The translations under genes and the position numbers were made by a program. DNA of 64,000 nucleotides. Origin: Scilla litardierei. Its lineage: Eukaryota; Streptophyta; Magnoliopsida; Asparagales; Asparagaceae. The DNA lies in assembly GCA_030789695.1 (NCBI GenBank), contig CM061141.1:195311689-195375688 (forward strand), read 5' to 3'. The notes under the pieces are model-generated. The model saw nothing but the letters and a program-made list of their open reading frames with translations. It had not been told where the DNA came from and did not search any database. How positions within the stretch are numbered: position 1 is the first letter of the stretch; the number at the start of each line of letters is the position of its first letter. Of this stretch, positions 31,851 to 64,000 are shown piece by piece.

Positions 31851-31855
31851 CCTCT
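31851..31855. repeat. Target site duplication of element G, right
   Basis: CCTCT, one base different from CCTCC at 22634-22638. After it, the B2 gag resumes in frame. Confidence 0.85.
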
Positions 31856-35473: not shown

Positions 35474-35475
35474 AT

Positions 35476-35492
35476 TGGTATCAAAGCCAAGG
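35476..35492 (+). other. Primer-binding site of unit B3
   Basis: TGGTATCAAAGCCAAGG, two bases after LTR c. Confidence 0.83.
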
Positions 35493-35515
35493 TTAAAGCT
35501 ACAAGTTTCAAAGCT

Positions 35516-37732: not shown

Positions 37733-39035
37733 TTTCCTTTAACCCTTCATTGCTTGGTACCATAAGTTTAATTTCATTTTATGGGTACCAACGCAATTGT
37801 GGTAATAATTGGTTTATTTTTTATTTGCATATTAATCATGGATGTGCTTGGTAATTTAAATTTAGTTAGGATATGGGTTACATTTAATATGTTAAATTTG
37901 TTGCCTAACCCATAGGATCCAAAAGATTTTTGGATACCAAAATGATATTCTCTAGGTTAAATCCACCATGGGATACCAACCCTACCAACTCATTGATTTG
38001 CAAGGGATTTTTCATTCAAATAGAGTTGATGGTGCTTAAGTGATGCACCAAAGTAGGGGGAGTTTAATGTTGTAAGTATATTCTTACTTTTGATTTACAT
38101 TTGTATCCATGTGTGTTAAATGCATCCATTGGTAGAATATCTACATTGGTATCATTTTCAATTAGTTTGCTAGAATTGCTTATGCCATTGGACTATGATG
38201 TTCTCTCTATGTTTGGCATAACACTTTTGCATGTTACTTTTGGTATTCATTGGATTTTTGTCTCTGATGTTGATTTCGTCGCTCAACGATTAACTTGGTT
38301 AAATAGAAATTCTTTCTATGAATTCATAGAATTGTTTTCCATGCACTATTTAACTAAGAATGTTAATATTGGAGAGTATGTTCCAAAACTCAATAAGTGA
38401 AATTGATTTGAGTTTTGATGATTTCGTATTTCGATTTTCGCCTATGGCTTGATGATTTCGTTTTTCGATTTTCGCCTATGGCTTGATGATTTCGTTTTTC
38501 GATTTTCGCCTATGGTTTGATGATTTCGTATTTCGATTTTCGCCTATGGTTTGATGATTTCGTTTTTCGATTTTCGACTATGGTCATGATTGGCACGCTT
38601 TGTTTTTCTTCGGTATTTAACATTTGGTATTTTACTTTGGGGTCATTTGGACCGTGGTCGTATTCTCAGACTCTCTTTCTTTAATTTCTTAGCCATTGAA
38701 ATCTTGTTGTTGATCTCCTCCCACTCTTTTTGCTAATGCCAAAGGGGAAGAGAATTAATAATGACAATGTGCTAATTGATATCAAAGCAATTTACCATGA
38801 ATCTAAGTTGATATGTTAGATTCAGGGGGAGTTAAGATATAAAATGGATTTAGAAATCCTAAATTACGATAATAGGATTCATATTTTATATTTCCCTCGC
38901 CTGCTTGATGCGTATGATTATTGTTTAATACGGAACTAACGTGTCATCAATGCAGGGGGAGTAAGTAAATTTCTTTTGAATCATTATTATTGATTATTAT
39001 TTATGTTGGTTTGTCATCACCAAAAAGGGGGAGAA
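37733..39035 (+). other. Array B unit 3, 3' non-coding tail
   Basis: Homologous to the other B tails. It contains the five-unit 34-bp repeat and ends in the polypurine tract at 39022-39035. Confidence 0.78.
38417..38586 (+). repeat. 34-bp tandem repeat, 5 units
   Basis: Same unit as at 18713 and 33157. Units 1 and 4 carry gtatttcg and the others gtttttcg, suggesting duplication of a block. Confidence 0.9.
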
Positions 39036-40393
39036 TGTTGAGTATTGATTCTTCGGATTTGGTTTTGGATGATGAGCAAACATAAATATCTCGTACTAAC
39101 TGTTTGTGAGCGCAGTTATGGAGATCGTCGCCAAAAGAATATGTACATCAAAAGCGACGTCTCAAGACTTCTCAATACGCGTGATCGTGTGCCTAAAGCT
39201 TCGTTGAAGCTCAAGGAGTTTTATTGAAGTCAAGATCGAAGATTGAAGCTAGCTTGGAAGACGGTTCGTCATGTATTATTTATTGTCTTCTAGCTTCGTA
39301 GATTAGAATGTTAAGCCTTGAGTAGGACTTACTTTATAATCTTCATTTCGCTCATATCTTAGAGCTAGGATTATCATAGAAGCCATTAGAAACTTTTCCG
39401 AAGCCTATCGCTTCTTCCCTCGGCTTCTAGTGCATGTTAGTTGGTTCAAGTAGAAGAACCAACCGACTAGATGACGATCTAGTCGGTCGGAAATTCCTCT
39501 TGAACCGACTAGAATGCCTTGCTCGTTTCTGCCTAGCTATGTTGATCAATTAGTCGGTCAAAGAAGGTTCACCGACCGACTAGATGACGATCTAGTCGGT
39601 CAGGAGTCCTTATCAGACCGACTAGTTATCATTGCCTCTGTACAGCCTGAGCTACTGTTTCGTGTTAGTCGGTCAAAGAACGTTTGTCGACCGACTAGTT
39701 GATAAACTAGTGGGTCAGCATTTGTTCTTAAACCGACTAAGTCAACTTGAAGTCAGCCTATTCTATTTCGACTATTAGTCGGTCAAAGAGCATTCACCGA
39801 CCGACTAGTTGTGAAACTAGTCGGTCGGCAAGTCTTCTTAGACCGACTAGTTGTCATCTCCTGTACTTCGACCTTTTGGCTGTTCAACCGTTAGTCGGTC
39901 TACGTTGAATCATCGACCGACTAGTTGATGAACTAGTCGGTCAGTGATCCTTCTTTGACCGACTAGTCTGGTTCAGAATAGAGCCGTTGGAGCTTTTATT
40001 GAAACGTTTTTCTCTCTCTCTTTCCTCTATCCTATATATACTTGGAGGGGTTCTCTCCTAGTATTCAAGGCTGCCATTTTAGAGGTTTAGAGAAATCATA
40101 GAGAAGCTATTCAACTCCATTCCAAAGCTTTCTCTTCCTCACAAGAATCTCTCCCTCAACTCTTTGAGCCATATTCCTCAAGAGAGATTCTCTCCATTGT
40201 GAGACTTCCAAGCAAAGAGCTTGATCCAAAGTCACCATCCTCCATCCTAGCCTTCGATCTCTGATCTTATTGGTGGAGCTTCGGTTTGGTGACATTCTCT
40301 CCTCAAAATCCTTCTTGCCCTAATTTGGTAAGTTATACTCAGGGCATAGGATTTTGTGGTAAGTGTTCTTTACTTGATTTCAATCGTCATTTC
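39036..40393 (+). repeat. Array B LTR d (3'-truncated)
   Basis: Starts TGTTGAGTATTG. It follows the B LTR through the palindrome array (39545-39970) and TATA box (40033-40040). The match is lost near 40390, where family C sequence in the opposite orientation begins. Confidence 0.85.
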
Positions 40394-40414
40394 AATCGGT
40401 TTGGTGTTCTTTAC

Positions 40415-41098
40415 TTCAAAATCCTTCTTCATCTCTCTCGGGCTTGGTTGGTTGAATCTCATTCTTGTGTTAAAGCTTCACTTCGTATGCCATGATATTC
40501 TCAACGCACTCCTCAACGGTATATTTGGACGTGTCGTTAGACTCCAAAATCTCGTTGGCCTTTGACTCCCATTTGGGCGTAAGAGAGTAAAGGATCGTCT
40601 CCACTTGATCCTCTTGGGAAATCACCTTCCCATGTCCTTCCAAAGCGTTCACGATGTCTGTGAATCTTGTGAACATTTTTGAGATGCTTTCTCCTTCCTG
40701 CATCTTAAACATTTCATAATTAAATCTAAACACACTTTGTTTAGATTTCTTTACCTTGGAAGTCCCTTCAAAAGTAATCTCCAAGATATGCCAGGTTTCA
40801 TTGGCCGATTTGCATATGGAGATGCGGTTGAACTCATTCGGAGTGAGGGCGCAATGGAATGCATTCATAGCCCTCGCATTGACTCTGATCAAGTCCTTCT
40901 CCGCCTTAGTTCTTGAAGCCATAGGTGAAGTAGGCTCCTCAAATGGCAACTCCGTGATGTCCCAAAGGTCTTGACCCTTCATGTAGATCATCATCCTGAC
41001 CTTCTAACTTGGATAGTTGGTTCTGTTGAAGAGCGGGTGTCGAACGGTAGAGTGACCTTCTTTATGAGACACGGATGTAGCGTAGAATGACGTCGTTG
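40415..41098 (-). pseudogene. gag N-terminal fragment, family C
   Basis: A copia-type gag (UBN2) fragment: FNRTNYPS then KVRMMIYMKGQDLWD, ARAMNAFHCALTPNEFNRI, SANETWHILEITFEGTSKVK, MQEGESISKMFTRFTDIVNAL, ILYSLTPKWESKANEI and CVENIMAYEVKL. This aligns motif for motif with the A gag but is strongly diverged. There is a TAG at 41004-41006 where the family has Trp, and a TAA near 40467. The 5' ATG seen in A and B is not recognisable. The zinc knuckle half is missing because of the junction with B LTR d. Confidence 0.8.
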
Positions 41099-41111
41099 CA
41101 GTATGCTATAA

Positions 41112-41127
41112 CCTTGCTCTGATACCA
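41112..41127 (-). other. Primer-binding site, family C
   Basis: Minus strand TGGTATCAGAGCAAGG, two bases from the LTR end; initiator-Met tRNA type. Confidence 0.82.
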
Positions 41128-41813
41128 ATTGTAAGGACTGTCTACCTTGCAATACTAACAACAAACATTCTAGAGGGGGGGTGAATAGAATTATGGCAAT
41201 AAATTGTGCAATTAAAATTTAACTTGCAAATGCGGAATAAAAAATGCAAGAGGAATTAATCAACACAATCAATGCAAAGGCAAACACAAGATATTACACT
41301 GGTTCCCAAAACATGAGTACGTCCAGTCACACCAATATTCACTATATTTCTCACAAAGAGAAGTGAATACAAATCCCACAAAGAGATACTTCACACAGAG
41401 GATTTTGTCCTACACAAGAACCAAACAACCCTATACAAGGGTCTAACTCCCACACAGAGAATTAGGGTTAGCCCAACGCTAGGACACCAAACTCCCACAA
41501 AGAGAGTAACTCCCACAAAGAGAGTATCTAATTCCCACAAAGAGAATTAGGTTACAAAGAAACACAAAGTAAAACAAATACTCTTGCATACGCCTTGAGA
41601 TGCTTACCCATAGATGAATGCAAGGCACGGAAGAGGATCTCCAAGTGATGAGATTAGCTTGAAAGCACTTGGATGATTTCTCTTGAGCATGACTTCAATG
41701 CATGAAGGAGATTTTGAGCTCTAAGAGGGAAATGAGAGAGTTTTAGAGTGGCTTATTTAATCTCTAATGATTTGCAATAGAGCCAAGAAGTTCCAATGAA
41801 CTCAGCCCTTTCA

Positions 41814-41821
41814 TATATATA
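41814..41821 (-). promoter_or_regulatory. TATA box of family C LTR
   Basis: TATATATA on the minus strand (GGTTCCTATATATATGAAAGG context), about 85 bp downstream of the nearest CAGTCGACTG palindrome. Confidence 0.68.
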
Positions 41822-41904
41822 GGAACCCTATAGGAACTCTCAAAAGCAAAGAAAACAGCCAAAAACAAAAGGCTGCAACGGCTAGATTTTGGGCTGAAAC
41901 GTCA

Positions 41905-42020
41905 CTGACAGTCGACTGATGAAATAATGACAGTCGACTATTCAACGGCTGGAAAAATCCCAACGACAATAATTTGAACCAGGACAGTCGACTGTAACAG
42001 ACTACACAGGCGACTGTAAA
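41905..42020. repeat. CAGTCGACTG palindrome array, family C LTR (left part)
   Basis: CAGTCGACTG and the half-forms CAGTCGACT / GGCGACTG occur about every 20-40 bp. The array continues after the E insertion at 55653-55953. Confidence 0.88.
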
Positions 42021-42023
42021 ACA

Positions 42024-42028
42024 GACAA
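42024..42028. repeat. Target site duplication of element E, left
   Basis: GACAA, matched with one difference by GACAG at 55650-55654. Confidence 0.6.
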
Positions 42029-42402
42029 TGTCACGTCCCGTTTCCCATTATACTTGGGAGCGAGGACGTGAGCGGGCCCGCTTGGGCTGGAACGGTGAAC
42101 TCCAACCCAATAAGCGCCTGTGGGCAAACCGTAATCAGGTTCTTGCATTCAAACTCGGAACAAAAAGGAAATTTCATTATCATTATATTGATGCCCAGAT
42201 TTACAAGTACACAAATAAGGCCAACTTGGCCATTAGATACAGAAACGCAAACAGAATTACACCTGAATATAAATACAACAAATATTATTCTTAAGCAGCG
42301 TTGCGAAGGCACATTGTTCTCCAGCGGCAGATCTCAGCGTCTGGGCACCCTGGTCAAGCTGCTCAGTCTCAAGCCTTGCTCCTCTGCAAATCTGTCTAAT
42401 AC

Positions 42403-42439
42403 CTGACGTATATTTCACAAGACAAGAAATATACGTCAG
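42403..42439. repeat. Perfect 14-bp inverted repeat in element E
   Basis: CTGACGTATATTTC at 42403-42416 and its exact complement at 42426-42439, with a 9-base loop. Confidence 0.9.
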
Positions 42440-42592
42440 CGAGGGTCGCTCGGCAAGATTTAAAAATGTTAGTAGTAAAATGACCCTCGGCAAGATTTAA
42501 TATAATTTACAAAACTTTAGAAATGAAAGACACAATATGTTTCCAAAAAGATGAAACATGGCAGCATGAAGCAACATGGGAACATAACATCG

Positions 42593-42780
42593 TGTAGTGA
42601 GTAAAGTAGTGAGCAAGTGGAGTGTGGTGCGTAAAGTAGCCGGCACAACAAGGTGTAGTGTGTAAGGTAACCAGCATGGCAAGTGTAGTGTATACATCAA
42701 TAGTCGTGACGGTGTAGTGTGTACAGCAATATGTATGGCAAGTGTGGTGTGTACAGCAATAGTCGATCGTGACAACAATT
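42593..42780. repeat. Degenerate GTGTAGTGTGTA tandem repeat in element E
   Basis: Roughly five to six imperfect units of about 30-40 bp built on ggcaagtgtagtgtgtacagcaata. The rest of 42440-43860 is non-coding LTR-like sequence. Confidence 0.7.
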
Positions 42781-43860
42781 TTAGCAGTTTACGCTGTAGC
42801 TTCAATAGAGGTAAAGAGAAGGGTGCATCAATCAATCAATCAATCTCCTATCTAGTGACAAAGCCCAGTGTCTGAGGGGGAGGTGACCAGCATCACACCC
42901 AAGTCGACGGGAGCTACCCGTGACTCTATACTCACCGACCCGGCCAGGTGTCGGTCAAGTTCACCACTAGAGTGCAATCCAGCTTTCCAGCCTCTACTAC
43001 ACTAGACTACCCCACCCAAGTGTTCTTGCTGGAACACGAGCCAGCCTAATCCATATTACAAGCACGCCCGAGTTTGTCAACTTGCATGACATCACGATTT
43101 CACGATTTCACCTCTTGGGCGCACGATTCATAATTTCACGATTTTTCTCAAGTTATGTCATTCCGTAATTGCCCGAAAGCCCAATGATCCGTAAATTGTC
43201 CGAAGACCCAAATATCTGTAATTGCCCCGAGGGCTCGGTTTTCACAATTCGATAGGGTGCACAGCACATGATAAATCGAATGACAAGAAAGAATAGCATT
43301 TCATGTGTATCGTTTAAGTGCTAAAACAACCAATACATTAAAAGGATTCATTAAAGACTTTTCCGAATATGAAAGTTGCTTACAAGGCAGTACCAAGATG
43401 TGCGTTATTTTTTAAGTTTAGTACACGATAAAATACTTGCGTCTTTGGAAAAAGTCTGAAGAAAGTAATATACTTGCGCCATCAAAAGTTGTAGGAAAGA
43501 AACCATATATTTGCAGGTTGTATATACTTGCCTGAAGCGACGCGATTTTGGGGTGCCCAGTGATCATAAGATAGGCACGAATTAATCTGCGAAATCGAGT
43601 TTGTGATATCAGTCTCATATTATTAACCAATTATAAGACCTAAAACTAACCCATTATAATTTTTACTTAACTTATAACAGAAAAATCTTAGCTTAGTAAC
43701 CTACAAGGAAAATAAAAATCTTAACTTTATAACTTAAAAATAATAATAGTTATAATAATAAACTTATAACTAATAATAATAATAATAAATAATAATCTTA
43801 CATTAAATACTCTCCCCCCTCTCTTATTCTCTCCTCTGCTCTTCGTTTCCCCCTTTTCTC

Positions 43861-44224
43861 TTCTTTCATTTCGTTCGCAGGTGAAGGGTGAAACGAGGCG
43901 GCGACGATCGGAGTTGAGCGGCGGGCTCCTGGGGATCGTACGGCTCCGGATCAGCGGCGGCGGTGAGATCGGGGCGGCGACGGATCTGGGGAGCTGGAAC
44001 GGCGGCGACGAGATCTGGAGTCGGAGGCGGCGTTTGGGGCGGAGATCTGGTGGCGGGATCGGAGGTCTGGCGTCGGCGGCGCTTCGACACGGAGCGGCGG
44101 CGGCTGTGATTGAGGAAGGGAGAGCGATCCGAGGCGATGATGTGGGCGGCGGGCGCTGGGCCAGTGGCGAGATCGGGGCGGCCTGGCGGTTGTGTGGGCG
44201 GCCTCCGTCGGCGATGGGAGGGAG
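43861..44224. other. GC-rich leader-like stretch of element E, left part
   Basis: CpG-rich GGCGGCG-type sequence after a CT-rich block. Open frames exist on both strands but look like composition effects. It is interrupted at the GGGAG duplicated by element D and continues at 53344. Confidence 0.6.
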
Positions 44225-44404
44225 TGTTGGGAATTGGGCGGTCCCTTAGGGCACAAAAACTCTAGTCCCGTCCTAAGTCGGACGGAACATAGACACAAAA
44301 ATCATAGCAGCGGAAGAAAAACTATGTTAACTAAATTAACATGCAGTTAAAACAATTTTAACTTAGCCCTAAGGTCCAAGACCCTATGCCAAGATCTATG
44401 CCGA

Positions 44405-44430
44405 CTTGGGATGGATCTGACCATCCCAAG
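44405..44430. repeat. Perfect 10-bp stem-loop in D LTR
   Basis: CTTGGGATGG and CCATCCCAAG around a 6-base loop. It is conserved at 50955-50980 in the other LTR. Confidence 0.9.
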
Positions 44431-45235
44431 AAGGATCTAGCCTACTGCGATTAAACTAAACTAATGCTAATAAAATAATTTAACCACATACCCAGAATCT
44501 CAGCCCTGGAGCAGGCGAGATGTTCCGCGCCGTCTTCCGAGCTGCTTCCGTCCCACGCCGAGCCGCTCCTTGAACCGCTCCCCGAACCGCTCCTTGAACT
44601 GCTCCGCATCCCGAGGCGATCAATCCACGTGCCGCCGAGCCAACCACGCGCCGAAGAAATTTTCACGCGAGTGAAACCTCCGCCTAGATTTCGGATCCAG
44701 AATCCGAACTCCTTTGTGGCTTTGCTAGAGCCCGCAGGAGTAAGGAAGAAATTTAGGGAGATAGAGAAATATTTATTTAAGCCTAGATCCGAGCGTGCTC
44801 CAACATTTACGAGAGCCGCTCAGATCTAGAGCTTGGGACGAGTTTTGAGAAAGGGGGGAGACCCCTATTTATATAGGCGGCGGACTCTCCCCTTTTCTCA
44901 AAATCCGATGTGGGACTAAATAATGAGTTAATTAAAATCAAGTTAGTTTGCACTTCACAAAGTGTAAACTTCCGTGAATTTTAACTCACTCACCGTTGAT
45001 CTTCAGGATCGATACAACCTATCAATACGACAAGCGTTCAACGGTGAACGCATAGGAAAAAACCGTTCGTCAATCGGAGTTCGTTTGACCCTCCAATTGA
45101 GTGTCCAAAGATCAGCCCTAGGCTAGTTTTTCGCAAAAACTGAGCCGTCATTTGATTCAGCACACTTAGGGTTCAAAACCCTAGAGGTGGGGCCCATGGG
45201 TGGGCCCCACGCATCCAACGCGTGCCAATATTGCC

Positions 45236-45500
45236 CTAGACGCGCCTGGGCAGAGCCCAGGTCGCGCCTGGGCTCGCCCAGCCGCCTGGGCGAGCCCAGG
45301 ACCACGCCTGGGCTCGCCCAGGCGGCCTGGGCGAGCCTAGGCCTGCGCCTGGGCTCTGCCCAGGCGCGGGGCAGAGCCCAGGCGGGCCTGGGCTTGCCCA
45401 GGCCCGCGCCTGGGCGGGCCCAGGCGCTGGGCAGAGCCCAGGCGGGCCTGGGCTTGCCCAGTCCTGCGCCTGGGCTTGCCCAGGCCACCTGGGCAGTTGC
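45236..45500. repeat. GC-rich palindrome array GCCTGGGC(N2)GCCCAGGC, D 3' LTR
   Basis: A dozen or so near-palindromes such as CGCCTGGGCTTGCCCAGGC in tandem. The 5' LTR has a shorter version at 51790-51985. It lies upstream of the TATA box in sense direction. Open frames across it (Gly/Ala/Pro/Arg repeats) are composition artefacts. Confidence 0.9.
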
Positions 45501-45766
45501 ACAGGCCCTGGGCAGGTCCAGGCCAGTGCCTGGGCTTGTCCAGGTCTGTCTTTTCTGGGCTTGACCAGCAGACTAGACCAGACTGGTCTGGGTCTGCCTT
45601 GTCTGACTCGTTGGGCTGTTTTGGCTCTAACTTGAGCATTTGGTGTCCGATTTGGACGTCGTTCGAACCTGGGTCTAGACCGGAATATTTCCGTCTTACG
45701 CGTGAACTTTTCCTTGCGTTTATATTATTAAATATTGTATTAAACAATTTAATACACATTTAATCG

Positions 45767-45858
45767 CTTTTGCATCAAATGCAAAATAGTCCCTATCTAA
45801 GCTTAAATTACCATATTGCATCAAATGCAATTATCTCTTCTTTTGCATCAAATGCAAA
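45767..45858. repeat. Three TTGCATCAAATGCAA stem-loops
   Basis: At 45767-45785, 45815-45831 and 45842-45858. The core TGCAtcaaaTGCA-type hairpin is constant while the flanking pairs differ together (TTTT/AAAA, AT/AT, TT/AA). The same trio is in the other LTR at about 52219-52310. Confidence 0.85.
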
Positions 45859-48382
45859 TATTCTCCCTAACTATTTTCTACCTATTACTAGACGAAGCGT
45901 TGCACTCTGTGTGAGACCCTACAGCCTGACCCTTACAACAGGTTGGGCTCGAAGCCCTATACGGCAGTGACCACGAGCAGTGGTTGCCGTCCCTGCTTCA
46001 GGAATCATCATTATGTGGTTAACTCATTGACATGAGTATTGTCGGGACCACCCTGACTGTTTCCGTGATGAATTCTGCAGTTATAGTCTCTTCGTCTTAA
46101 ATATGTCGTGTAGATCAAGTCTAGGGTACGGTCAAACTGTCAACCCCAATAACTTGACTCCGGTTAGTTTCTATCGATCTTTAGTCAACTAATGTTGGAC
46201 TTCTTCCAACATACTCTGCGCAGAGTTTTTACTAAAGACCTAACTAACTCTACGACACTAACTCCCATTGACCGGGAGAGACGAATCCTCTCTTGGTCAT
46301 TACTTGCCTCGTACGTTTCAAGTGACACCCAATCAAAAAACCTTTCGACAGGCATTGCCTCGAAGCTAGGTCAGTTGATATAAGTGGCACCGTTCACGCA
46401 CAGGTTTGTCAAAATGACCTCAAGTCAAAAGACCAACTATCCTATCATCACTCAGAGTTATCACTGACAGATTGGTCAATATAACCATGTGATAACTCTA
46501 GTGGATCGTTCAGTGAACTCATTCTAATGAGCACCTGTGTCTCGTCTTCGACTTCGCCAAGTCAAGCGATCATGAGATCATCGCCACCGCTAAACGGTGA
46601 AGACTAAGACACAATGGTCTATCCGATGTTTCGATATCCTTGTCTCGGAACATCTACGACCACGAACCATTTTAGACTTATGCTACAGACGGTCAAACGT
46701 TTCTCCATGATCGAGATACTCATCTCGATACCTGTTTGGCCTTGCATAAAGTCTCAGGACTTTACCTAAGTCGATATCTAATTATAAAATAACTTAGATA
46801 AATCATTACCAAACAGCTTACTGTTATTTCGAACAAGATGTTTGTGCTATTCACACAGGAATAAATGGCCTCGAGGGCATAATATTCCTACATCTCCCAC
46901 TTGCACTCAGGCCCATTTATCTCGATATCTAATATCGTTTTCACACATAAGTTTTCCCGACTTCATGTGGTAGAGCCTTCGTGAGTGGATCTGCTAAAAC
47001 CGTCTACACTATAGACTTAAGGGGTTTTTATGTTTATGTCAGACCAACTATTTGAATCTTATTCAAATAATTCATTTGGTCTGTCGGAATCCATAATATT
47101 TTATTTTACTTGGATCTTATCCAGTTTATCGTACCTTACGATAATCATTTAAATTTGTTAATGGTCATTTTAAATGGCTCATATCTATTCTTGATAATGT
47201 ATCAAACCTTTTGATTACTTTGTCAAAATGTATGTTCCATCCCTTTGATGATTCGCATGTAATTTATACGCTCCCACTGACCTTGAAAACTATCTGGCTA
47301 ATTCATATAAGTTGGTTCGTCTAAATCATATTTAGAAAAACGAACTTATAAGTGAATGCGCAAATTTTCGTGGTCAACTTGAGCGTTTACATCGAGCTTT
47401 GGTCCGAGTAGATCTGTACACATCTGTTGGCGAAACCGGTTTCATCATAATCCGTTTTATAGGAATTAGGATGAAAAACCGTTCTCGACCAACATGATTG
47501 TACTTCACTATTTTCTTTCTGCACCAACCTTTCAACTTAAAGATTTACTTGCAGAAAGTGAGGAAACATTTTCCTTGGGTACGTAAACTAAATTCTCAAT
47601 TTATTTACGCACACGGACCTGCATCAAGTTTTAAATCGGAGTTACTACTCCGAATTTCATCCTAGAAGTTGACTAAGTCATCATCAGTTATGATGTCTAA
47701 CTCGACAATCCGTCTCACGAGATTCGAGTAATAATACAACTTCCTTACGATTGATTTATTGAATATATTATTGATAATGTCCTCATAGAACTTTATCAAA
47801 ACCTAGGCATTACTATCTGGGACTTAACCCAGAGGGAGGACTTAACTCAGAGTCACTTACAATGGATCACACTAAATCTAATTAAGTGTGATTCATACCT
47901 TTTAACATACCGATGTGTTAACGGACTTGATCTGAGAGAAAATCACATTTTCTTTTAATTACACAAGATTTTATGTAGCTAAGTATTTGACCATTCGATC
48001 TAATCGAATCAGTTTAAATACTTTCGTCATTTCGTTCTTTATTTTATCAGACTTGCGTTTCATCAAGAACACGTGTCTTAGTAAAATATACGAATAAATT
48101 ATTTTGTTAAAAATAGACTCGGGTACATCAGTATGTACGAGACTGAGTTCGACAACTCATTCTCCCACTGTCTTACAGATGGGTTTCGGCCATTGTATCT
48201 AAGAGGCTAAGACTCACAAGTGTCCGTAGACTTCATAATACGAGAGGTCAGACCCCTCTTTATGTGACTTGTGAAGCTTAATCTCTTGATATGGCCTAGT
48301 CTAATTTTACCATATAAGTTTGCTACTATCTTGTGTATTTATATATTAACATTTAATATATATATAGTTATTTACAAATTAC

Positions 48383-48438
48383 TTAACACAAAACATTACT
48401 TCAGAAGCAATGTGACGACATTCGTCAAAATGTGTTAA
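48383..48438. repeat. Three-way-junction-like inverted repeat in D interior
   Basis: The outer stem TTAACACA / TGTGTTAA encloses two adjacent hairpins: ACATT...AATGT (48393-48413) and GACG-acatt-CGTC (48414-48426). Confidence 0.7.
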
Positions 48439-48616
48439 ACGTCTTTTGTATAACAATTTATTCTGAAATCGTGACATCAAAATATGACACATTTTCATTT
48501 CCTCCTACTTATGCCTTTACTAATGATAAATTAAACTATTTAACTCGATTGACTTTCCGGAGTGCCTTCTTCCTTTTTCTAAATCACATTTAGATATCAA
48601 CATAAATAAATAGCTA

Positions 48617-48718
48617 TGCAAGCAACTTATGTATCCAAACGCTTGAGCTTTGCAATCTTGAGTGTAGCTCAAGAAATTGCTTGTCTCAAGATCCGGTTGG
48701 GATACATAGTCTTGCATC
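48617..48718. repeat. Long imperfect hairpin in D interior (about 100 nt)
   Basis: The arms share, in mirrored order, ATGCAAG, ATGTATCC, CTTGAG, GCAAT and CTTGAG around the apex TGTAG. This is the largest member of the TTGAG-TGTAG-CTCAA family; the others are at 48776-48839, 49234-49280, 49355-49383 and 49522-49563. Confidence 0.78.
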
Positions 48719-50757
48719 GCTCATGCACTCGTATTCGACTCAAACGGTTTAATCGAATTCTCGAACTTTGTGGATCAAAATTGTTTGTCCATACAACCTT
48801 GAGGGTAGCTCGACAAGTTGTAGGGAGAAACATACTTTGAATGTCCTATATGTTCAAGCTGCCTCATATAGAGACGAGTGACATGTAGTTTTAATTTATT
48901 TATTGGACCCATAACTTAATGAAATCATATTTCTTAAGTCTGTTCTTTAGAAGGTCATTTAATGTCAATGAGAATATAGTTTAATTACATCAATTAGAAT
49001 TTAACTTGATATTCAATTAATCAACTTATTGACCAGTTAACTAATTCCATTATTATCAATTGATTCTTTCGGTAAACATGGTCTTGCCCTAGTTTTAGCA
49101 TATGTTCTATATTAAATATAGGTAGATTGGCTTTTATCTATCTATATCCTCCCACTATTTTTACGAACGTTTTAAAGCTTAATAACGAACGATTTAATCG
49201 AATTAAAAATTAATGGGTAAGAGTTCCAATCACCTTGAGTCTAAACAACCTTGAGTGTAGCTCAACAAGTTGATTGACTCTGCGATCGGAAGATGACTCT
49301 TCATCGATCATATCGAATGTGACTCTCTTAATCGGTTTTTGCCCCTAGCCATTCGTGATCATGAGTGTGCTCATCCAAATCACAATGTCTAGTCTAGTCG
49401 GACCCTTGTTTTCATGTCTAGCCTGACTTGCCCCTCAGCTCGGTGTATGCACGACACGTTGGTTTGGGTCAGGTCTTAGACTACATCTTATGTATTTAAG
49501 AAGTTGGTTTCTACAAGGTTGCCATGTCACAGCTTGAGTGTATCTCAACAACTGTAACACTGGCCCTATAGTTGCTAACCCCTAAAACAAGGAGGGTTAC
49601 GGCTAATCTTGAAAAAGATCATTAACGTATTTGACTTAGATATAGTTCATGGTGTCATACAATCATGATTCGCGACATTGCGGTCCAGCGGAACTCAGCC
49701 AGGGAATTGACTAAGCCAGGATCACTATCCCTTAAAGGGTGATCCAGAACTCTTAGCCAAGCACATTGACTGGATCATGGTCCATTGAATGAAGCTTGTC
49801 ATTTTTGTATGTATGCCATAGACTAAACAGCTTTTATTAACAACTAATTAATCCTATCAACTAGTTGAATCCTTAAATTCAAAATTTTAGGATTTGTTTA
49901 ATAACTTTTATTAAGTCCTTATCAACTATAAGGTTCACGTGCTACCCTAATCGTTATTAGGATTTTAATAAATTTTATTTACAACGCTAGAAGCGAAGTC
50001 CTTTAATGAAAATTAATTATAACAATTAGAATTGAAAAATTCATTTAAAGGACTACCCTAATCAGGAATTAGGTCTTAATATTGTTGTTAATGATTTATT
50101 AAAACATAGCATGTCATTAAAATTCAAGTAATAAATTTTAATCATTTTTAATGGCTAACCTAAAGGGTTGTCTTGTGTTATCAAATAAGGGACAAGATTA
50201 ACAAGCCATTAAAATAAAGCTACACTAATTTTATCAACATAAAATGAAAGTGTATATCTATTTAACAATTAAATATACCAAGTTTATCGCATAAACAATT
50301 TTTAGATTTTTAAAATCAGTTTTAAAAATATCTTATAAATTTAAAACATTGCTTTAAAAATTTTCCACGTTCAAAAATTTATCATATACAATTTTTAAAC
50401 ATCTAACATATTTTAAACTTATCGCATAAATTTAAAGCCTTAAAATCAATTTTAAAATTTATCACATAAATTTAAAAATACTATTTTAAAATTTCCATGC
50501 TTAAAAAATTTATCATATAAAAAATTTTAGGCATCCAAAATAATTTTAAACTTTTAAATATTTAAAATTTGTTTTAAAATTATCACATAAATTTTAAAAT
50601 GTCATTTTAAAAATTTTCATGTTCAAAAAATTTATCACATAGAATTTTGAACTTCAAAAACATTTTTAAAATTATCTAATAACTTTAAAAATTTAAAAGT
50701 ATTTAAAAAGGCATTAACAGGTTTAATGAAATCGCAGTGCTAGATCGACTACGCAAA

Positions 50758-50774
50758 CCTAGGCTCTGATACCA
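50758..50774 (-). other. Primer-binding site of element D
   Basis: Minus strand TGGTATCAGAGCCTAGG, one base from the LTR; initiator-Met tRNA type. Confidence 0.85.
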
Positions 50775-50775
50775 C

Positions 50776-53343
50776 CGTTGGGAATTGGGCGGTCCCTTAG
50801 GGCACAAAAACTCTAGTCCCGTCCTAAGTCGGACGGAACATAGACACAAAAATCATAGCAGCGGAAGAAAAACTATGTTAACTAAATTAACATGCAGTTA
50901 AAACAATTTTAACTTAGCCCTAAGGTCCAGACCCTATGCCAAGATCTATGCCGACTTGGGATGGATCTGACCATCCCAAGAAGGATCTAGCCTACTGCGA
51001 TTAAACTAAACTAATGCTAATAAAATACTTTAACCACATACCCGGAATCTCAGCCCTGGAGCAGGCGAGATGTTCCGCGCCGTCTTCCGAGCTGCTCCCG
51101 TCCCACGCCGAGCCGCTCCTTGAACCGCTCCCCGAACCGCTCCTTGAACTGCTCCGCATCCCAAGGCGATCAATCCCCGTGCCGCCGAGCCAACCACGCG
51201 CCGAAGAAAGTTTCACGCGAGTGAAACCTCCGCCTAGATTTCGGATCCAGAATCCGAACTCCTTTGTGGCTTTGCTAGAGCCCGCAGGAGTAAGGAAGAA
51301 ATTTAGGGAGATAGAGAAATATTTATTTAAGCCTAGATCCGAGCGTGCTCCAACATTTACGAGAGCCGCTCAGATCTAGAGCTTGGGACAAGTTTTGAGA
51401 AAGGGGGGAGACCCCTATTTATATAGGCGGCGGACTCTCCCCTTTTCTCAAAATCCGATGTGTGACTAAATAATGAGTTAATTAAAATCAAGTTAGTTTG
51501 CACTTCACAAAGTGTAAACTTCCGTGAATTTTAACTCACTTACCGTTAAGCTTCAGCATCGATACAACCTATCAATACGACAAGCGTTCAACGGTGAACG
51601 CATAGGAAAAAACCGTTCGTCAATCGGAGTTCGTTTGACCCTCCAATTGAGTGTCCAAAGATCAGCCCTAGGCTAGTTTTTCGCAAAAACTGAGCCGTCA
51701 TTTGATTCAGCACACTTAGGGTTCAAACCCCTAGAGGTGGGGCCCATGGGTGGGCCCCACACATCCAACGCGTGCCAATATTGCCCTAGACGCCCCTGGG
51801 CAGAGCCCAGGTCGCGCCTGGGCTCGCCCAGCCGCCTGGCCGAGCCCAGGTCCACGCCTGGGCTCGCCCAGGTGGCCTGGGCGGGCCCAGGCCCGCGCCT
51901 GGGCTTGCCCAGGCCCGCGCCTGGGCTTGCCCAGGCCACCTGGGCAGTTGCACAGGCCCTGGGCAGGTCCAGGCCAGTGCCTGGGCTTGTCCGGGTCTGT
52001 CTTTTCTGGGCTTGACCAGCAGACTAGACCAGACTGGTCTGGGTCTGCCTTGTCTGACTCGTTGGGCTGTTTTGGCTCTAACTTGAGCATTTGGTGTCCG
52101 ATTTGGACGCCGTTCGAACCTGGGTCTAGACCGGAATATTTCCGTCTTACGCGTGAACTTTTCCTTGCGTTTATATTATTAAATATTGTATTAAACAATT
52201 TAATACACATTTAATCGCTTTTGCATCAAATGCAAAATAGTCCCTATCTAAGCTTAAATTACCATATTGCATCAAATGCAATTATCTCTTCTTTTGCATC
52301 AAATGCAAATATTCTCCCTAACTATTTTCTACCTATTACTAGACGAAGCGTTGCACTCTGTGTGAGACCCTACAGCCTGACCCTTACAACAGGTTGGGCT
52401 CGAAGCCCTATACGGCAGTGACCACGAGCAGTGGTTGCCGTCCCTGCTTCAGGAATCATCATTATGTGGTTAACTCATTGACATGAGTATTGTCGGGACC
52501 ACCCTGACTGTTTCCGTGATGAATTCTGCAGTTATAGTCTCTTCGTCTTAAATATGTCGTGTAGATCAAGTCTAGGGTACGGTCAAACTGTCAACCCCAA
52601 TAACTTGACTCCGGTTAGTTTCTATCGATCTTTAGTCAACTAATGTTGGACTTCTTCCAACATACTCTGCGCAGAGTTTTTACTAAAGACCTAACTAACT
52701 CTACGACACTAACTCCCATTGACCGGGAGAGACGAATCCTCTCTTGGTCATTACTTGCCTCGTACGTTTCAAGTGACACCCAATCAAAAAACCTTTCGAC
52801 AGGCATTGCCTCGAAGCTAGGTCAGTTGATATAAGTGGCACCGTTCACGCACAGGTTTGTCAAAATGACCTCAAGTCAAAAGACCAACTATCCTATCATC
52901 ACTCAGAGTTATCACTGACAGATTGGTCAATATAACCATGTGATAACTCTAGTGGATCGTTCAGTGAACTCATTCTAATGAGCACCTGTGTCTCATCTTC
53001 GACTTCGTCAAGTCAAGCGATCATGAGATCATCGCCACCGCTAAACGGTGAAGACTAAGACACAATGGTCTATCCGATGTTTCGATATCCTTGTCTCGGA
53101 ACATCTACGACCACGAACCATTTTAGACTTATGCTACATACGGTCAAACGTTTCTCCATGATCGAGATACTCATCTCGATACCCGTTTGACCTTGCATAA
53201 AGTCTCAGGACTTTACCTAAGTCGATATCTAATTATAAAATAACTTAGATAAATCATTACCAAACAGCTTACTGTTATTTCGAACAAGATGTTTGTGCTA
53301 TTCACACAGGAATAAATGGCCTCGAGGGCATAATATTCCTACA
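50776..53343 (-). repeat. Element D 5' LTR (2568 bp)
   Basis: A near-identical partner of 44225-46892. Its first plus-strand base is C where the other LTR has T (CGTTGGG against TGTTGGG). It has fewer GCCTGGGC units. Confidence 0.9.
51416..51425 (-). promoter_or_regulatory. TATA box of element D 5' LTR
   Basis: TATATAAATA on the minus strand, downstream of the GC palindrome array at 51790-51985 in sense direction. It is the probable promoter of the non-coding RNA. Confidence 0.7.
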
Positions 53344-54060
53344 GGGAGGAGGTGCTCCGGGATCGGTGGTTGCTCGGAGAAGCCAACCGGAGCTCGGGGG
53401 CGGTGGGTTGTCGAGATCTGGGGTGGAGATCGGTGTTGGGGGGGTTCCTCTGTTACGAACAGGGGAATGGATCTGAGACAGGGGAGAGGATATGAACGGA
53501 GAAAGCGGGCTCGAAGGAGAAGATCTCAGAGCGGAGGGCGACCGGAGGTGCCGCCGGCGTGGGGGTGAGGTTGGTGGAGGTTCTGGGCTACGTCGAGTGG
53601 AAATTGAGAGAGGGGCGAAGTTGGTGGCGGGGAGATTGTTGGGTGATGAGAGGGCGGAGATTGGGGATGTCGAAGTTGGCGGTGAGGTTGGTTAGAGGTG
53701 TGTTCGGGGGCTGGAGAGATGTGGCAATGGCGGCGTAGCTGTCGAGGGGGGGTTGTGAGGAAGATGAAGTCGCCTCATGGGTCGAGGGCGGAGATCGGAG
53801 AGGAAGTCTGGGGAAGAGGATGGTGGCGTGGCAAAGTCAGGGCCTGTGGTTGTTTGGTGTTGGGGAATCGATGATTGCGGGAAGAAGAAAGAGGGGGCAC
53901 TGTGTCGGAGTTGGTCGGAGAAATGACTCGGCTCGTCGGAGTTGTTGGGTCCCAGCGGAGGGTGGAATGAGGTTGCTGGGTTTCGGGCTGAGGGAGGCGC
54001 ACGGCAAAACCTCGGGTTCGTTGGGTTTAAGGGGAAGAAGAATCGAAGGAGGAGTGGAGA
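53344..54060. other. GC-rich stretch of element E, right part
   Basis: Continues the CpG-rich block broken off at 44224, beginning with the GGGAG target duplication of D. Open frames on both strands (for example 53692-54105 minus) show no family motif and follow the base composition. Confidence 0.55.
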
Positions 54061-54114
54061 AAAGAAATGAGTGCGGGCTTTTATAAAATGTATGCCTGGG
54101 TTCATAGAGTTTGT

Positions 54115-54181
54115 AGGGTGATTGGCCTAGATCAGTGCGTGAGTAATTGGGTGATTGGCCTAGATCAGTGCGTGAGTAATT
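54115..54181. repeat. 33-bp tandem duplication in element E
   Basis: gggtgattggcctagatcag followed by tgcgtgagtaatt occurs twice head to tail. Confidence 0.9.
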
Positions 54182-55649
54182 GGCTTAGGGTAGGTTAGGG
54201 GAAGAATTAGGAAATAATGAGAATGGAAATGGGTTTAAATAAAGAAAATATTTATGAGGTAAAATTGATTAGGGGAAAAATTAATATTAAGGGTTCATTA
54301 GGAAAGTTTTTGAATTCAAATAAAAATTCGTATTTAATAGTAATTATTAGAGAGAATTAAAAGCAATCTAAATAGTAAGGTTTTTTGAATAAAAACAATT
54401 AGAGGAAATAAAGAGGGTTGAATGAGTAAAATATTTCCTAAATAGTTATAATTTAATTAGGGTTTAAAGAGGAATGTTTTTTATATAAACAAATTTGAAA
54501 TTTGATTCTTTTGAAAACATTCAAATTTTATAACTTTTGGGTTTGAATTTGAATAACCACCGACATGAAATCAAATAATAACATGTTCACAGGAATGAGT
54601 AAGAGGAAATAAGAGGAAAATGAAAGGTTTGAAAATTTAAAAGATTTGTTTTAAATAATAACTGATTAGGAAAATTAATAAAAATAATAGGGAAAGTGTT
54701 TCAAATTAAAACATTTGCTTTTAAAACAATATTTATCATGGAAATTAAAAACGAATGCAATAAGGAAAATTGAATAATAATGAGGTTTAATTTCAGGATA
54801 ATCCCCAATTAGTCATAGACTTTATTACGGTAACAAAAATAGGAAAGTTTGAAACATATTAATAATTCGGGATTTAAAGCTAGGTAATTTAGGAAGTTCT
54901 TAAACAGGAAAGTTTTTAAAATGAATTTGAAATTGGAAAATATTTGAATAACAACATTAATAGGGGAGATTAATACTAAGGAATAATTAGGAAAGTTTTT
55001 GAATGATAACATTAATTGGAGAAATTACGAGTAAGATAAAAAGGAAGGTTGAATAAAAATAATTAGGGAAATTAAAAGGGTTTGAATGAGTAAATATTTC
55101 TAAAATTAAATTAGGAATATATAAAGAAGGTTTTTAAATGAATTCGAATTTAAATTTCAAAAACATTTTAACTTTTAAAACATTTAAAATTTAAATCTCA
55201 AATCATTAATAACATTATTAATAACTTAACTAACAAGTATATTAATAGTACCCATACATCAAAGTATATTAATGAAAGACTTAAATTAATGGGTTTTAAA
55301 AATTTGGAAGGTTTAGAAAATTAGAATTTAAAAGAGAGGGTTTAATGGGAGAATACTTATAAATTAGTTATGATTTAATAAGGAGATACAAAGAGGAACC
55401 ATTTGAATTCGGGTTTGAGAATATTTGAACTTCTTAAAACATTTGAATTTGAATTTTGAATAACTATTTATATGAAATCAAATAATAACATTTTTTTATG
55501 TATAAATATAGCTACTTAAAATAAAATACGTATTAAGCATTTGAAGTTAATTAAAATACGTTCGAAATTCAAATACGTATAAGATACGAAAAATCATGAA
55601 ACCGAATATACGAATCAAAAATACGTACCATTAAATACCGGCAGTTACA
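54182..55649. other. AT-rich end of element E
   Basis: Purine- and AT-rich, with many gaattaggaaa / tttgaatttaaa phrases and no gene. It ends GGCAGTTACA at the GACAG target duplication. Confidence 0.6.
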
Positions 55650-55652
55650 GAC

Positions 55653-55953
55653 AGTCGACTGTATAACCTCCATCAGGCGACTGGTGCAGGGATGGAAGAA
55701 AAACAGAGAGAGAATGCAAATTGGGATGAAGGCCCAGAGAATGCAAGATGCGCACAGTCGATTGTCGACCAATTCACAGACGACTGTAGAAACACATGCG
55801 ACTGTAAATTGAACATCAGTCGATTGATGTGAAAAGCTCAAGAAGAGTCAATAGAAATGTTGACTTGAGCTATGCACCACAGTCGACTGTAGAAGGCTCG
55901 ACAGGCGACTGGAATCACCCAGTCGACTGTAAAACCTCCATCAGGCGACTGTT
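55653..55953. repeat. CAGTCGACTG palindrome array, family C LTR (right part)
   Basis: CAGTCGACTG at about 55653, 55871 and 55918, with variants (CAGTCGATTG, GGCGACTG, AGACGACTG) between. It continues the array at 41905-42020. Confidence 0.87.
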
Positions 55954-56390
55954 GGAGAGCCAAAGACTCCAAATTAGTCCTTGGGATAGATGAACCTATT
56001 GGGTTGGATTCTATGATAATCCTAAGGCTCACTAAGATGTTGAAATGCATATGCATGAGAGTATGCCATCTATCAAGGCATTACATAAACCTAGACTCAA
56101 AAAGAGAGAAAACAATAAATGAAATTACATGGATTACAATGCTTTCCTTAGAGTATATGTCTTCAATCTGGATGCCTTGATGCTCACCATCATCTCCAAG
56201 CTTTGGCACCCCTTGAGTCCAAGCATTGGCCCTTCTCCACTTGATGTTCATCCTTGCACCAAGTGTTTAGTCTCCAAAAATGATATTCTTGAAAAGTAAC
56301 TAAGAGACTAAAACAAGAGGGTCATTAGAAACAACATAATGTTGTGATCATCATCAAAATAACAATGGTATGAAACACCAATACTCAACA

Positions 56391-57417
56391 ATCTCCTCCT
56401 TTTTGATGATGACACACATTATGTAAAACATAAAAAAATAAATCACAATGCTAATAAGCTCCCACTACTTATATGCACCAATTGTAAAATAAGATACACA
56501 ATTGTAAATACTCATTATACCAAATGAAATAATGAGACATCATGGTGACATATAATAGACATGGATTACATAAACCAATTGCACTAGAAAATAACCATGC
56601 ACACATGAATGGTTTATACAATCCCACATATCTCTCCCTAAATGCATATGTATGAAATAAAATAATTACAATTACATAATGCACATATCTCTCCCCCTTG
56701 ACATCGTCAAAAAGGCGGACATCATAAATATCCCATTGACATCTTAATCAAAGATGTGACAATATGCAAGAGTAAAGAAATGTATGATACCAAGTTGTAA
56801 AAATTTAGTGGGTATCAATCACTATCCCATGCTCCCCCTAGATCATAGAAATGGTCAAATTTTGACTTCTAGGATCTAATACCAATTGTAAAGTAGGAGA
56901 TAAACAATCTCTAACAATTGAGGTAATACCAATTGTAGAAAAAGAATCTTGAAAATTAATCCTCTTTACCAAATGTAAACATTGATTGGAGCCATGGGCC
57001 AAAAGTGTATCAAATCCATAGATATGGAAAAATCAAGCTTCAATGATACACAATGACATTGCCAAAAATATAATATAACATGTAACATGTTGGCAATATC
57101 AATGAGTTAAGATCAAGATCATAATAACCAAGTGTAAATAATGATCTTTATCAAAACCCAAAATTAGAGTTAAATTATGTTTTAAAAATATTTTAAACAT
57201 ACAACATATTAACTCCCCCATTGTCATACGTATGGATCAAAGAATGCATGCATGACAATGTATTCTCCAAGGTCCCCATTTTCATGATAAATAAATTTGA
57301 AAACATTTTCAAAATCATGAAACACAAACAAACAATGGGTATGCTAAAAATAAACATTTAAGCACAATACCCATGCAATATGCATATGTGTAAGGAACCT
57401 AAACATTATGGAACCAA
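56391..57417 (-). other. Family C 3' non-coding tail
   Basis: Minus-strand polypurine motifs: AAAAAGGAGGAGAT next to the LTR, and GGGGGAG-like runs near 56692 and 56825 with a weaker one near 57208. The arrangement is as in the A and B tails, without the 34-bp repeat. No gene. Confidence 0.72.
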
Positions 57418-58640
57418 ACCCAAGAGGAGTTTGATTTCCTAATGTAATCACATGAGGTGACCACATCCCTAACTAGATAGTTGATGTATCTATCCCTCTC
57501 TTGCACACTACACATAGTGAAAATCCATAATCTCAAGGATTTCCTAGGCAAGGGTTTTAACTTTGCAAGAGGGGTGGATTTGGCATGCTTAGGTGTAGAA
57601 AATATTTTCTTAGCATGCATGAAGTGAGGATTTTGCTTCTTAGCAAAAAATGAAGAGTTTTCATTTTTTCCTCACCACCTTGTGATTTACATGCTTCTTG
57701 TTGGTGTTATTGTTATACAAGAAGGCATGGTGATTCTTCTTAGGTGCTTTAGCAATATGTCTTGTATTTGCACCAAAAGAAGAATTAGAGGTGGGTTTGG
57801 TAACCGTCTTTGGAGTGTATCCCAAACCTCCTCTATGGTTTTCCGGATGTTTTTCAAGCAAACCGTAGAATAAACAAAGCTTTTGAGCTTTTGGGATTCC
57901 TCTGCGTATTTCAACGTAAGTTGTTGAATGCGAGTTTCTAAGCTAAGGTTTTGAGCTACTAATTTTTATTGGTTATGCTCAAATTCTTAATTTGTGAGAG
58001 AAGTGTGTCTCTCTCACTAGTGTCACATACATGCAAAGCATCATTATCATTTACATTAGTAGATTCTAAAGCATGCAACCTACTCATAGCATTTTTAAAT
58101 TTAGCTTTCAATTTAGCATATGAGTCGATGCATTTACTTGCCCCATTGGAGACCACATTGAAGCGGTATTAGAGCTCCTCGTATGATAGCTTCTCCTCCT
58201 CAACTTCCTCGTCGCTTTACTCCTCACTAGAGCTAGACGAAGACTCTTCCCCCTTTGCCATGTAGCACATTTCCTTGTTGGGGTTGAGCCACGCCTCCAC
58301 CTCTTCATCACTTGAACTCGATGAGATAGATGAAGACTCATCAAAAGCCGTGAAGCACATATGAGCTCGCTCCTTGTCATCCTCTTCTTCATCACTTGAT
58401 ATGTCCTCATCTGAGTCATCAAAAGTGCCGACAAGTCCCTTCTTTTGGTTCTTGAACTTGGACTTGCCTTTCCCATGCTTCTTCCCTTTACCCTTATAAG
58501 TCTCGTTAGTGGGTTTGGAAGGGCACTCGGTGGAGCGATAACCTTTGCCACTGCAAGTGTGACAAGTAGGAATCTTGTTAGAATTGGAGGCAAACTTTGA
58601 AGAAGATTTACTGATCGCACCCGGATATACATCCGAAAAA
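57418..58640 (-). pseudogene. gag C-terminal fragment, family C
   Basis: Read on the minus strand, a variant zinc knuckle (CHTCSGKGYRSTEC, Tyr where His is usual) lies at about 58520-58560. Asp/Ser/Glu linkers (DDSDEDISSDEEEDD, AHMCFTA) and a coiled-coil-like part (IDSYAKLKAKFKNAMSRLHALE) follow. The tail ends SNSSWVWFHNV, the counterpart of SSSSWTWFPKG in A. Several stops and frame changes are visible (for example near 58150, 58213 and 57960). The N-terminal half is cut off by element F at 58640. The shared tail shows that C also lost pol at the gag end. Confidence 0.75.
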
Positions 58641-59675
58641 TGATTGTAGTCTCATCGCAAGCGCACGGTGTAGGGGCAAGCGGGTATCAAACATGAGGAG
58701 GTGGTGTTGGCTCCAATCTATCCTAGATTGGTTTGACTACGAATGTATTATTGGTGGAGATGGGTATGATGTGATATAATGGAAATGGTGATGAATGTCG
58801 GTGTAGGTGATAAAGACGTCGGTCATATATCGATTCAAACACAATATAATAAAAGTGTCTAGGGCTAGGGAATCCACACTACAGATCGCCATACATCATT
58901 GTAAATAGTGAATCTTAATATTACTAGACTTGTGTTGAGGTGAACTAGTTGTAACTGAATAGAGAACCAAGCTCATGCTCTCGTGCTATTGCCGGTCTAT
59001 AGCAACCTAGATTAGAACCCACTCTCGTGCAAACCCTAACCTAAGCCGCTAGCATGAAGATCGACATCATCGTGCAATCGCACCTCGAGCCCACTCTCGT
59101 GCAAACTCGAGTTACAATCTAGGTTGTGATAGTTCGTATTTGTCCAATCTCCTACAAACGAATATGTGTATAGATTTATAATAAAAATGCTAGCTTTGGT
59201 CCAATCCCTTGCAAACCAAGTCTAGTGGATTTCAATTATAAACCTAATTCGGATATCTAGGTTTTCCCATCGAGAGGAATCTAATCTCTTGCAAACCCAA
59301 ATCGATGGAAATTCCTAGATATCTGTGATAAATCAACCACAACCTAACCCCTTTAGCAATTCTAGCAACATATGAACCCATTCATCACAATTCTAAAATC
59401 GAATCCTAGTCCATCCACGTGCCCTAGAACAGTGAATCTACTCAAGCATAGCAATAACGATAGAGAAATCGATAAAAAAGATTGCTTGCATATATAAAGA
59501 TATCAAATCAAAGATTCAAATATTAAGAACAAAGATACTTAGCTTTGATAAAGAACTTCAATCCCAATTACAAGCTGTTAGATCTAAGAAGGGGCCTAGG
59601 GCATGGCCTAACCACTAAAATAATCCCTAAGAAAACATAATAGGAACCCCCCCTCTAATGACGGCTACAAATCTC

Positions 59676-59682
59676 TTATATA
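59676..59682 (-). promoter_or_regulatory. TATA box of element F LTR
   Basis: Minus strand GGCTATATAAGAG, about 110 bp downstream of the nearest CGGCCGAGTG palindrome in sense direction. Confidence 0.62.
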
Positions 59683-59789
59683 GCCCCCCCTCAAAAAAAA
59701 CCTAGCAAATAACCCTAGAAAACCTCTGAAATTTGTGTCCAAAGACAGCTCTGGCTGCAACTTAAGTTCTGGGCCCGCAGTCACTAGGG

Positions 59790-60420: not shown

Positions 60421-60710
60421 TCCTTCCTTCTCCTCCTCACCTCCTCGATGATTCCTTCAACGTTCTTCTTCTTCCACTGATCGTCAAGCGCCGTTAGCTC
60501 CTCAATAAGGCCATGGGCGACGCTCCGATACGCGTGCAAGTCCCTTAAGCTCATTTTTGCTCCCGATTGATCCATATTTCTTGAACTTCGACAAAAACAA
60601 GAAATAGTGAAAAGTAAAGCAATATCATCGAGTAATCATGAAAATCGCAATATGAGCAATCAAAATGGCGTGCATACATGCAGAAAAAGGTGTAAAATAT
60701 GGACTGATCA

Positions 60711-63990: not shown

Positions 63991-64000
63991 ACGGTTAGCG

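Follow-up and report, generated by a model that had tools for sequence, protein, structure and literature searches.

A LARD-like retrotransposon of Scilla litardierei with a predicted transcript rich in hairpins and G-ended triloops

Related non-coding elements and the anatomy of element D

Large retrotransposon derivatives (LARDs), such as Sukkula, combine kilobase-long long terminal repeats (LTRs) with an interior of about 3.5 kb. Here, we describe element D, a LARD-like element in a 64,000-nucleotide stretch of Scilla litardierei DNA (the window; GenBank assembly GCA_030789695.1, contig CM061141.1, positions 195,311,689 to 195,375,688 of the forward strand), whose transcript is predicted to fold into a string of hairpins. 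We compare it with described systems. LARDs are LTR elements with a core domain that yields no protein products, and they are said to depend on autonomous elements (PMC7215508). Terminal-repeat retrotransposons in miniature (TRIMs) have short LTRs and almost no interior and, like LARDs, are said to encode RNA structures that are well conserved (PMC7215508); that a non-coding element should be structured is therefore not new in itself. BARE2 is a defective element, a gag-less parasite of BARE1, whose RNA is packaged in its relative's particles and which has kept its packaging and dimerization signals; it does not express Gag, and the rest is possibly still translatable (PMC3735527). Retrozymes carry hammerhead ribozymes in LTRs of some 350 bp (PMC4918200). 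In HIV-1 and HIV-2, Gag reads unpaired guanosines in structured RNA (PMC12031250).

Element D has the following landmarks:

44225-53343, minus-strand reading: element D, the whole LTR retrotransposon
44220-44224, no strand: left target-site duplication, GGGAG, matched by the right copy
53344-53348, no strand: right target-site duplication, GGGAG
44225-46892, minus: 3' LTR, 2668 bp, from the LTR-LTR alignment
50776-53343, minus: 5' LTR, with a shorter GC-rich array and C as its first base versus T in the other LTR
50763-50774, minus: primer-binding site TGGTATCAGAGC, adjoining the right LTR
46893-46902, minus: polypurine tract AAGTGGGAGA, adjoining the left LTR

We take TGGTATCAGAGC to be a primer-binding motif of the initiator tRNA-Met type. 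The position of this site makes the minus strand the transcript strand of D, and the assignment, based on the primer-binding site and the polypurine tract, was settled in advance of the loop-sequence analysis. The LTRs differ by 30 substitutions over 2567 aligned sites (98.8% identity), 20 outside the GC-rich array and 10 inside it, with 101 gap columns. At the commonly used plant rate of 1.3e-8 substitutions per site and year, D, a young element, would have inserted roughly 0.3-0.5 million years ago.

The interior is about 3.9 kb in size. Thirteen stop-to-stop open reading frames (ORFs) of at least 50 aa overlap it, the longest of 76 aa. A Pfam scan of 10 of the 13 gave no family above cut-off, a search that did not extend to shorter or stop-broken remnants, and on this basis we rejected a coding remnant. 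An earlier reading of the window, made from its letters without database searches (the sequence-only reading), had called D free of protein coding, which agrees with what we found among these ORFs. Because D has LTRs, a primer-binding site, a polypurine tract, and a target duplication but no recognizable coding, it is probably non-autonomous.

In general, D looks like a LARD. It shares the kilobase-long LTRs (by the general length given above), target duplication, primer-binding site, and polypurine tract, and it has a core of several kilobases in which no retrotransposon protein was recognized in the ORFs scanned. However, the portion of PMC7215508 used here makes no mention for LARDs of triloops (hairpin loops of three nucleotides) ending in G or of a hairpin module repeated with exchanged stems, both of which D has. 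These two details appear to be new. In a literature search that did not cover the original 2004 LARD paper, we saw no triloop signature like that of D described, which is weak evidence of absence. Like BARE2, D would be a defective element parasitic on a relative's particles; unlike BARE2, which may keep its remainder translatable, it has no detected coding. With retrozymes it shares being a non-coding plant LTR retroelement where RNA structure matters, and with HIV-1 and HIV-2 the proposed reading of unpaired G in structured RNA by Gag, although the HIV sites lie in one 5' leader of a coding genome and D would spread them over kilobases.

Several other assignments were tried and rejected. D is not a retrozyme, as its LTRs measure 2.7 kb and Rfam scans gave no hammerhead, and it is not a TRIM, given the length of both its LTR and its interior. 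Nor did we find a known structured RNA in D: the 25 Rfam matches (E up to 1) all fell below gathering scores, with 23 on the GC-rich array and 2 on a TATA-box hairpin, nearly all of them to microRNA models. By DNA similarity, D has no relatives in the window outside itself besides AT-rich stretches, and a scan of viral contigs for family copies gave no matches.

Hairpin excess and G-ended triloops

We counted hairpins with perfect stems of at least 7 bp and loops of 3-12 nt, using 60 dinucleotide-preserving shuffles in 200-base blocks as controls. The interior (46893-50764) has 22 such hairpins versus 6.6 ± 2.1 in shuffled sequence (maximum 11), and 46893-49800 alone has 11 versus 2.7. The left LTR has 22 versus 2.55 ± 1.27 and the right LTR 21 versus 1.8. 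The window outside D is also above chance, 2- to 4-fold, with 36 versus 9.2 (1-13000), 48 versus 11.3 (13001-31000), 34 versus 11.1 (31001-44000), and 21 versus 10.3 (53344-64000). Per kb, this amounts to 5.7 hairpins in the D interior and 8.2 in the LTR, versus 2.0-2.8 in the rest of the window. Outer stems of at least 6 bp enclose 7 of 37 interior hairpins (shuffled flanks, mean 2.2, maximum 7), and outer stems of at least 7 bp enclose 5 of 37 (mean 0.8, maximum 3); in two non-array LTR parts, the counts are 0/8 and 1/8. The multi-tier hairpins of D include unequal internal loops.

Next to these counts we computed folding energies with a span of at most 200 nt, expressed as z against 20 shuffles. 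The stretch 46893-49800 reached -11.2 on the minus strand and -14.5 on the plus strand, at about 1.3 times the mean energy of the shuffles, and the two non-array LTR parts reached -7.2 and -7.8. Controls gave 0.1 (gypsy pol), -0.8 (61101-64000), -2.6 (58700-61600), -3.8 (41000-43800), and -7.1 (54200-57100). Scans in 120-nt windows gave mean z of -1.4 to -1.6 for the D interior, -2.7 to -3.1 for the LTRs, -1.6 to -2.0 for the regions of neighbouring gag-bearing elements, and -0.3 to -0.5 for 58501-64000; by these scans, the D interior does not stand out from its neighbours. When the whole interior was folded, the transcript strand did somewhat better, at -975 versus -885 kcal/mol on the other strand. 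Read along the transcript from primer-binding site to polypurine tract, an AT-rich domain (~50750-49800) is followed by a module domain (~49600-48600) and a triloop domain (~48470-46900), of which the outer two are:

49801-50750, minus: AT-rich domain adjoining the primer-binding site, with long AU hairpins and diverged repeats of ~120-130 bp; folding z -7.2 for 49801-50764
46893-48470, minus: triloop domain, which holds 17 of the interior fold's 24 G-ended triloops

The sequence-only reading fared unevenly against these results. All ten hairpins that it had picked out by eye fold where it placed them, at -3.4 to -17.6 kcal/mol with structures taken on the plus strand and energies computed for both strands, and its expectation of a stem density above that of shuffled sequence is borne out. 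Its description of D as almost entirely stem-loops was an overstatement, as 66% of bases are paired in the model of 46893-49800 versus 58% in shuffles. Two-tier hairpins are enriched in the interior as it held, but shuffles also produce them, which it had thought chance would not do. Likewise, its estimate of two or three hairpins by chance was too low for the AT-rich part, while the excess over chance stands.

The excess is concentrated at particular loop lengths. With stems of at least 6 bp, 46893-49800 has 14 triloops versus 0.7 expected, 4 tetraloops versus 1.0, and 2 loops of 0-2 nt versus 3.2. Together with the non-array LTR, the numbers are 21 versus 1.3, 10 versus 1.6, and 4 versus 5.2, and a second, two-fold excess is seen at 13-30 nt (52 versus 25). 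Since the short-loop excess begins at 3 nt, being a perfect palindrome is not in itself favoured; what is favoured is a palindrome able to fold within one strand. In the gag elements, tetraloops and loops of 13-20 nt account for most of the excess.

On the transcript strand, 17 of 21 triloops in the interior (46893-50776) and 7 of 7 in the non-array LTR end in G. This total of 24/28 compares with 16% of shuffled triloops (p 1.6e-15, post hoc), and the mirror signature, a triloop with C as its first base, occurs in 1/28. We noticed the pattern after the loops had been listed, and the p-values are therefore post hoc; stem-length classes and folded controls were run afterwards. The 28 hairpins are not all independent, as GCAT-TTG-ATGC recurs in three LTR hairpins and TCTAAAT arms in two interior ones, and counting each related set once by hand gives 21/25. 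The G-ended share climbs with stem length, from 12/45 at 4 bp through 8/14, 7/10, and 10/10 at 5, 6, and 7 bp to 7/8 at 8 bp or more. The minimum-energy fold of the whole interior contains 71 hairpin loops, of which 31 are triloops (8.9 ± 2.5 in 40 shuffles, maximum 15), and 24 of these 31 end in G (1.3 ± 0.9, maximum 3). Nine control folds contained 0-2 G-ended triloops each. In a set of 823 triloops drawn from 1349 natural RNA structures, UAA, GCA, UUU, AUA, and GAA are named as the most frequent (PMC4615370); because none of these ends in G, the bias in D differs from the usual triloop preference. Heptaloops on stems of at least 5 bp (44225-50776) show no clear excess, at 10 versus 8.1, and 9 of the 10 begin with G on the transcript strand.

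Paralogous modules and competing explanations

Five hairpins between 48652 and 49556 were chosen by a shared tip, UUGAG-CUACA-CUCAA or a near variant. Their differing lower stems were spotted by eye ahead of the formal count:

48652-48680, minus: module c1, with the shared tip UUGAG-CUACA-CUCAA; lower stem GCAAU/AUUGC
48793-48821, minus: module c2; lower stem ACAAC/GUUGU
49245-49273, minus: module c3; lower stem UCAAC/GUUGU, with one U-U end cell and otherwise like c2
49355-49383, minus: module c5; lower stem GUGAU/AUCAC, tip AUGAG-CACA-CUCAU
49528-49556, minus: module c4; lower stem UACAG/CUGUG

Standard pairs fill 24 of the 25 lower-stem cells, 23 of them Watson-Crick. Four of the five pairs change on both sides, which 17 of 500 shuffles also reach, and covariation stands at 1.08 versus 0.27 ± 0.15, which 0 of 500 reach. 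Structures slid along the modules gave covariation of 0-0.75, the highest on two pairs only. A covariance model of the modules recovers its own five at E < 1e-5 and finds no extra copies below E 0.02. Weak matches (E 0.02 and 0.26) fall on the transcript strand of the gag elements, within their LTR region, at 34745-34773 (+), with copies at 15046, 20265, and 40037.

We also located hairpins by a strand-neutral method and counted their G·U pairs against A·C mismatches, with shuffles as the reference because composition alone can shift the ratio. The transcript strand of D gave 54:26 (shuffled share 0.57, p 0.04), and laxer scoring gave 110:52 (shuffled share 0.56, p 0.0009). The excess is modest and depends on the scoring. 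The plus strand of 53344-58100 gave 12:24 under the first scheme. Together, the G-ended triloops, the compensatory changes in the lower stems, and a G·U excess, modest as it is, point to pairing being maintained in the RNA. They favour RNA, not DNA, as what selection keeps in D, over template-switch debris, and so lend support to the earlier suggestion that the folded RNA is the selected feature.

We therefore read D as a non-autonomous, LARD-like LTR retrotransposon that would be mobilized by the proteins of an autonomous relative. Statistical and computational evidence supports a minus-strand transcript that would fold into a string of hairpins. An RNA-binding protein would recognize these repeated hairpins, each presenting an unpaired G, as well as the five copies of one tip. 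This protein would most likely be the helper's Gag, and many binding sites would make for efficient packaging or retention in helper particles. To this reading as a whole, in which D would be a LARD-like parasite and many hairpins of its RNA would serve protein recognition, we assign a probability of about 0.5. A more specific form is tentative. In it, the D genome would be a dispersed array of such hairpins, two to three dozen triloops plus the five-fold module, competing for helper Gag; stems would turn over freely, while the fold and the 3'-terminal loop G would persist on the transcript strand.

Several results weigh against the parasite reading. The gag elements fold as strongly as D, with z of -10.6 in a coding part and -11.9 and -12.2 in other parts, yet they lack the triloop signature (2/6, 0/3, and 0/6 G-ended). 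Since they reach similar z, strong folding is a trait of several LTR elements here and not of D alone, and the idea that it is special to a non-coding element is not supported. The G·U:A·C ratios of these elements under the first scheme are 27:14, 22:23, and 17:22. Within D, the signature is weaker in the folds of the non-array LTR parts (3/9 and 5/7 triloops, 8/16 together), tetraloops on stems of at least 6 bp show no bias (4/17 end in G), and G is not the last base of the module tips. Pentaloops end in G in 7 of 8 perfect hairpins with such stems but in 2 of 10 in the interior fold. The covariation comes from five paralogues within a single element, not from a second family copy, and two of the five have a stem in common. 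When 3' arms were swapped among the modules, 2 of 120 permutations were as good, the real one included; this tie arises because c2 and c3 share a stem, and without c3 the real arm pairing is the single best of 24. Gag-element copies were unsuitable for covariation, as three are nearly identical and the chosen stretch (el2a) aligns poorly. Substitutions between the LTRs gave no signal of constraint since insertion, with 6 unpaired, 7 pairs kept, and 7 broken outside the array (n = 20) and 5 unpaired and 5 broken inside it, as expected for an integrated copy. Furthermore, the packaging determinants of Ty1 known so far lie within the 5' 580 nt (PMC4974528).

The hairpins might instead be left behind by a reverse transcriptase that switches template by snapping back, an alternative that the sequence-only reading had raised, in which case the fold would be functionless and the loop bias a one-strand enzyme preference. 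Many apical stems are indeed perfect and short-looped, and a one-strand enzyme could yield a one-strand loop bias. However, there is no excess at 0-2 nt loops, a G·U excess on the RNA strand is not predicted, and single snap-backs give neither multi-tier hairpins with unequal internal loops nor paralogues that keep a tip while their lower stems differ and still pair. We consider this explanation disfavoured and quite unlikely.

Structure could also stabilize or compact the RNA or help it to evade host RNA surveillance, like the genome-scale ordered structure of viral RNAs, with no specific protein involved. A folding excess that runs across the interior, the LTR, and the gag elements, coding part included, suits this idea, which predicts neither the final G of the triloops nor a tip repeated five-fold and which we regard as unlikely. 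The strand-specific loop identity and the repeated tip would suit any loop-reading protein, and the signature might therefore be a site for a host RNA-binding or processing factor (export, splicing avoidance, decay) instead of Gag; no Rfam family reaches its gathering score inside D, and a host factor seems improbable to us.

Recognition by helper Gag, as in the reading that we prefer, concerns a broader problem. This is how non-coding LTR elements come to be packaged into helper particles; even for the yeast Ty elements, packaging sequences are said not to be precisely defined (PMC4974528). D supplies a countable signature, G-ended triloops and one repeated tip, that is searchable in other genomes.

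LTR features and neighbouring elements

Two further features lie in the left LTR:

44835-44906, minus: long hairpin that carries a TATA-like box, CCTATATAAATA, close to the tip; fold -32.9 kcal/mol
45236-45609, minus: GC-rich array of CCTGGGC/GCCCAGG palindromic units, range as masked in the counts

The TATA-box hairpin is a possible candidate promoter of D. If the box does act as promoter, about 2 kb of the LTR would be U3, in the 3' part of the RNA. The right-LTR copy of the GC-rich array lies at ~51795-51986, and local folds of the array reach -107 and -129 kcal/mol over ~120 nt. The array is thus unequal in length between both LTRs of one young element, in which it also carries a third of the LTR substitutions (10/30). 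Additionally, each LTR has a 14-bp perfect palindrome, ACTCTGCGCAGAGT (46213-46226 and 52664-52677); its folded tip, GCGC, could let two RNAs pair with each other. In the right flank of D, a 33-bp unit is perfectly duplicated in tandem at 54116-54183.

The gag elements of the window carry Copia-type gag ORFs (Retrotran_gag_2) in repeated units at 1-8200 (-), 13500-22300 (+), and 31000-40400 (+). The units are spaced ~5.2-5.3 kb apart, and no pol ORF of at least 150 aa is listed in them. Direct copies are 89-100% identical, and the inverted first unit is 78-92% complementary to the others. A protein search with a gag sequence, in which the 7994 best candidates were scored, gave two distant proteins, one of them from Telopea. 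On the gag strand, tetraloops at 13500-20690, 33000-40400, and 2001-8200 often read U[GNNR]A, unlike the signature of D, in copies that are not independent. Finally, a borderline Rfam match to snoR71 at 24905-25011 (-), with 41.6 bits versus a gathering score of 40, overlaps a retrotransposon gag ORF of the opposite strand and is possibly spurious.

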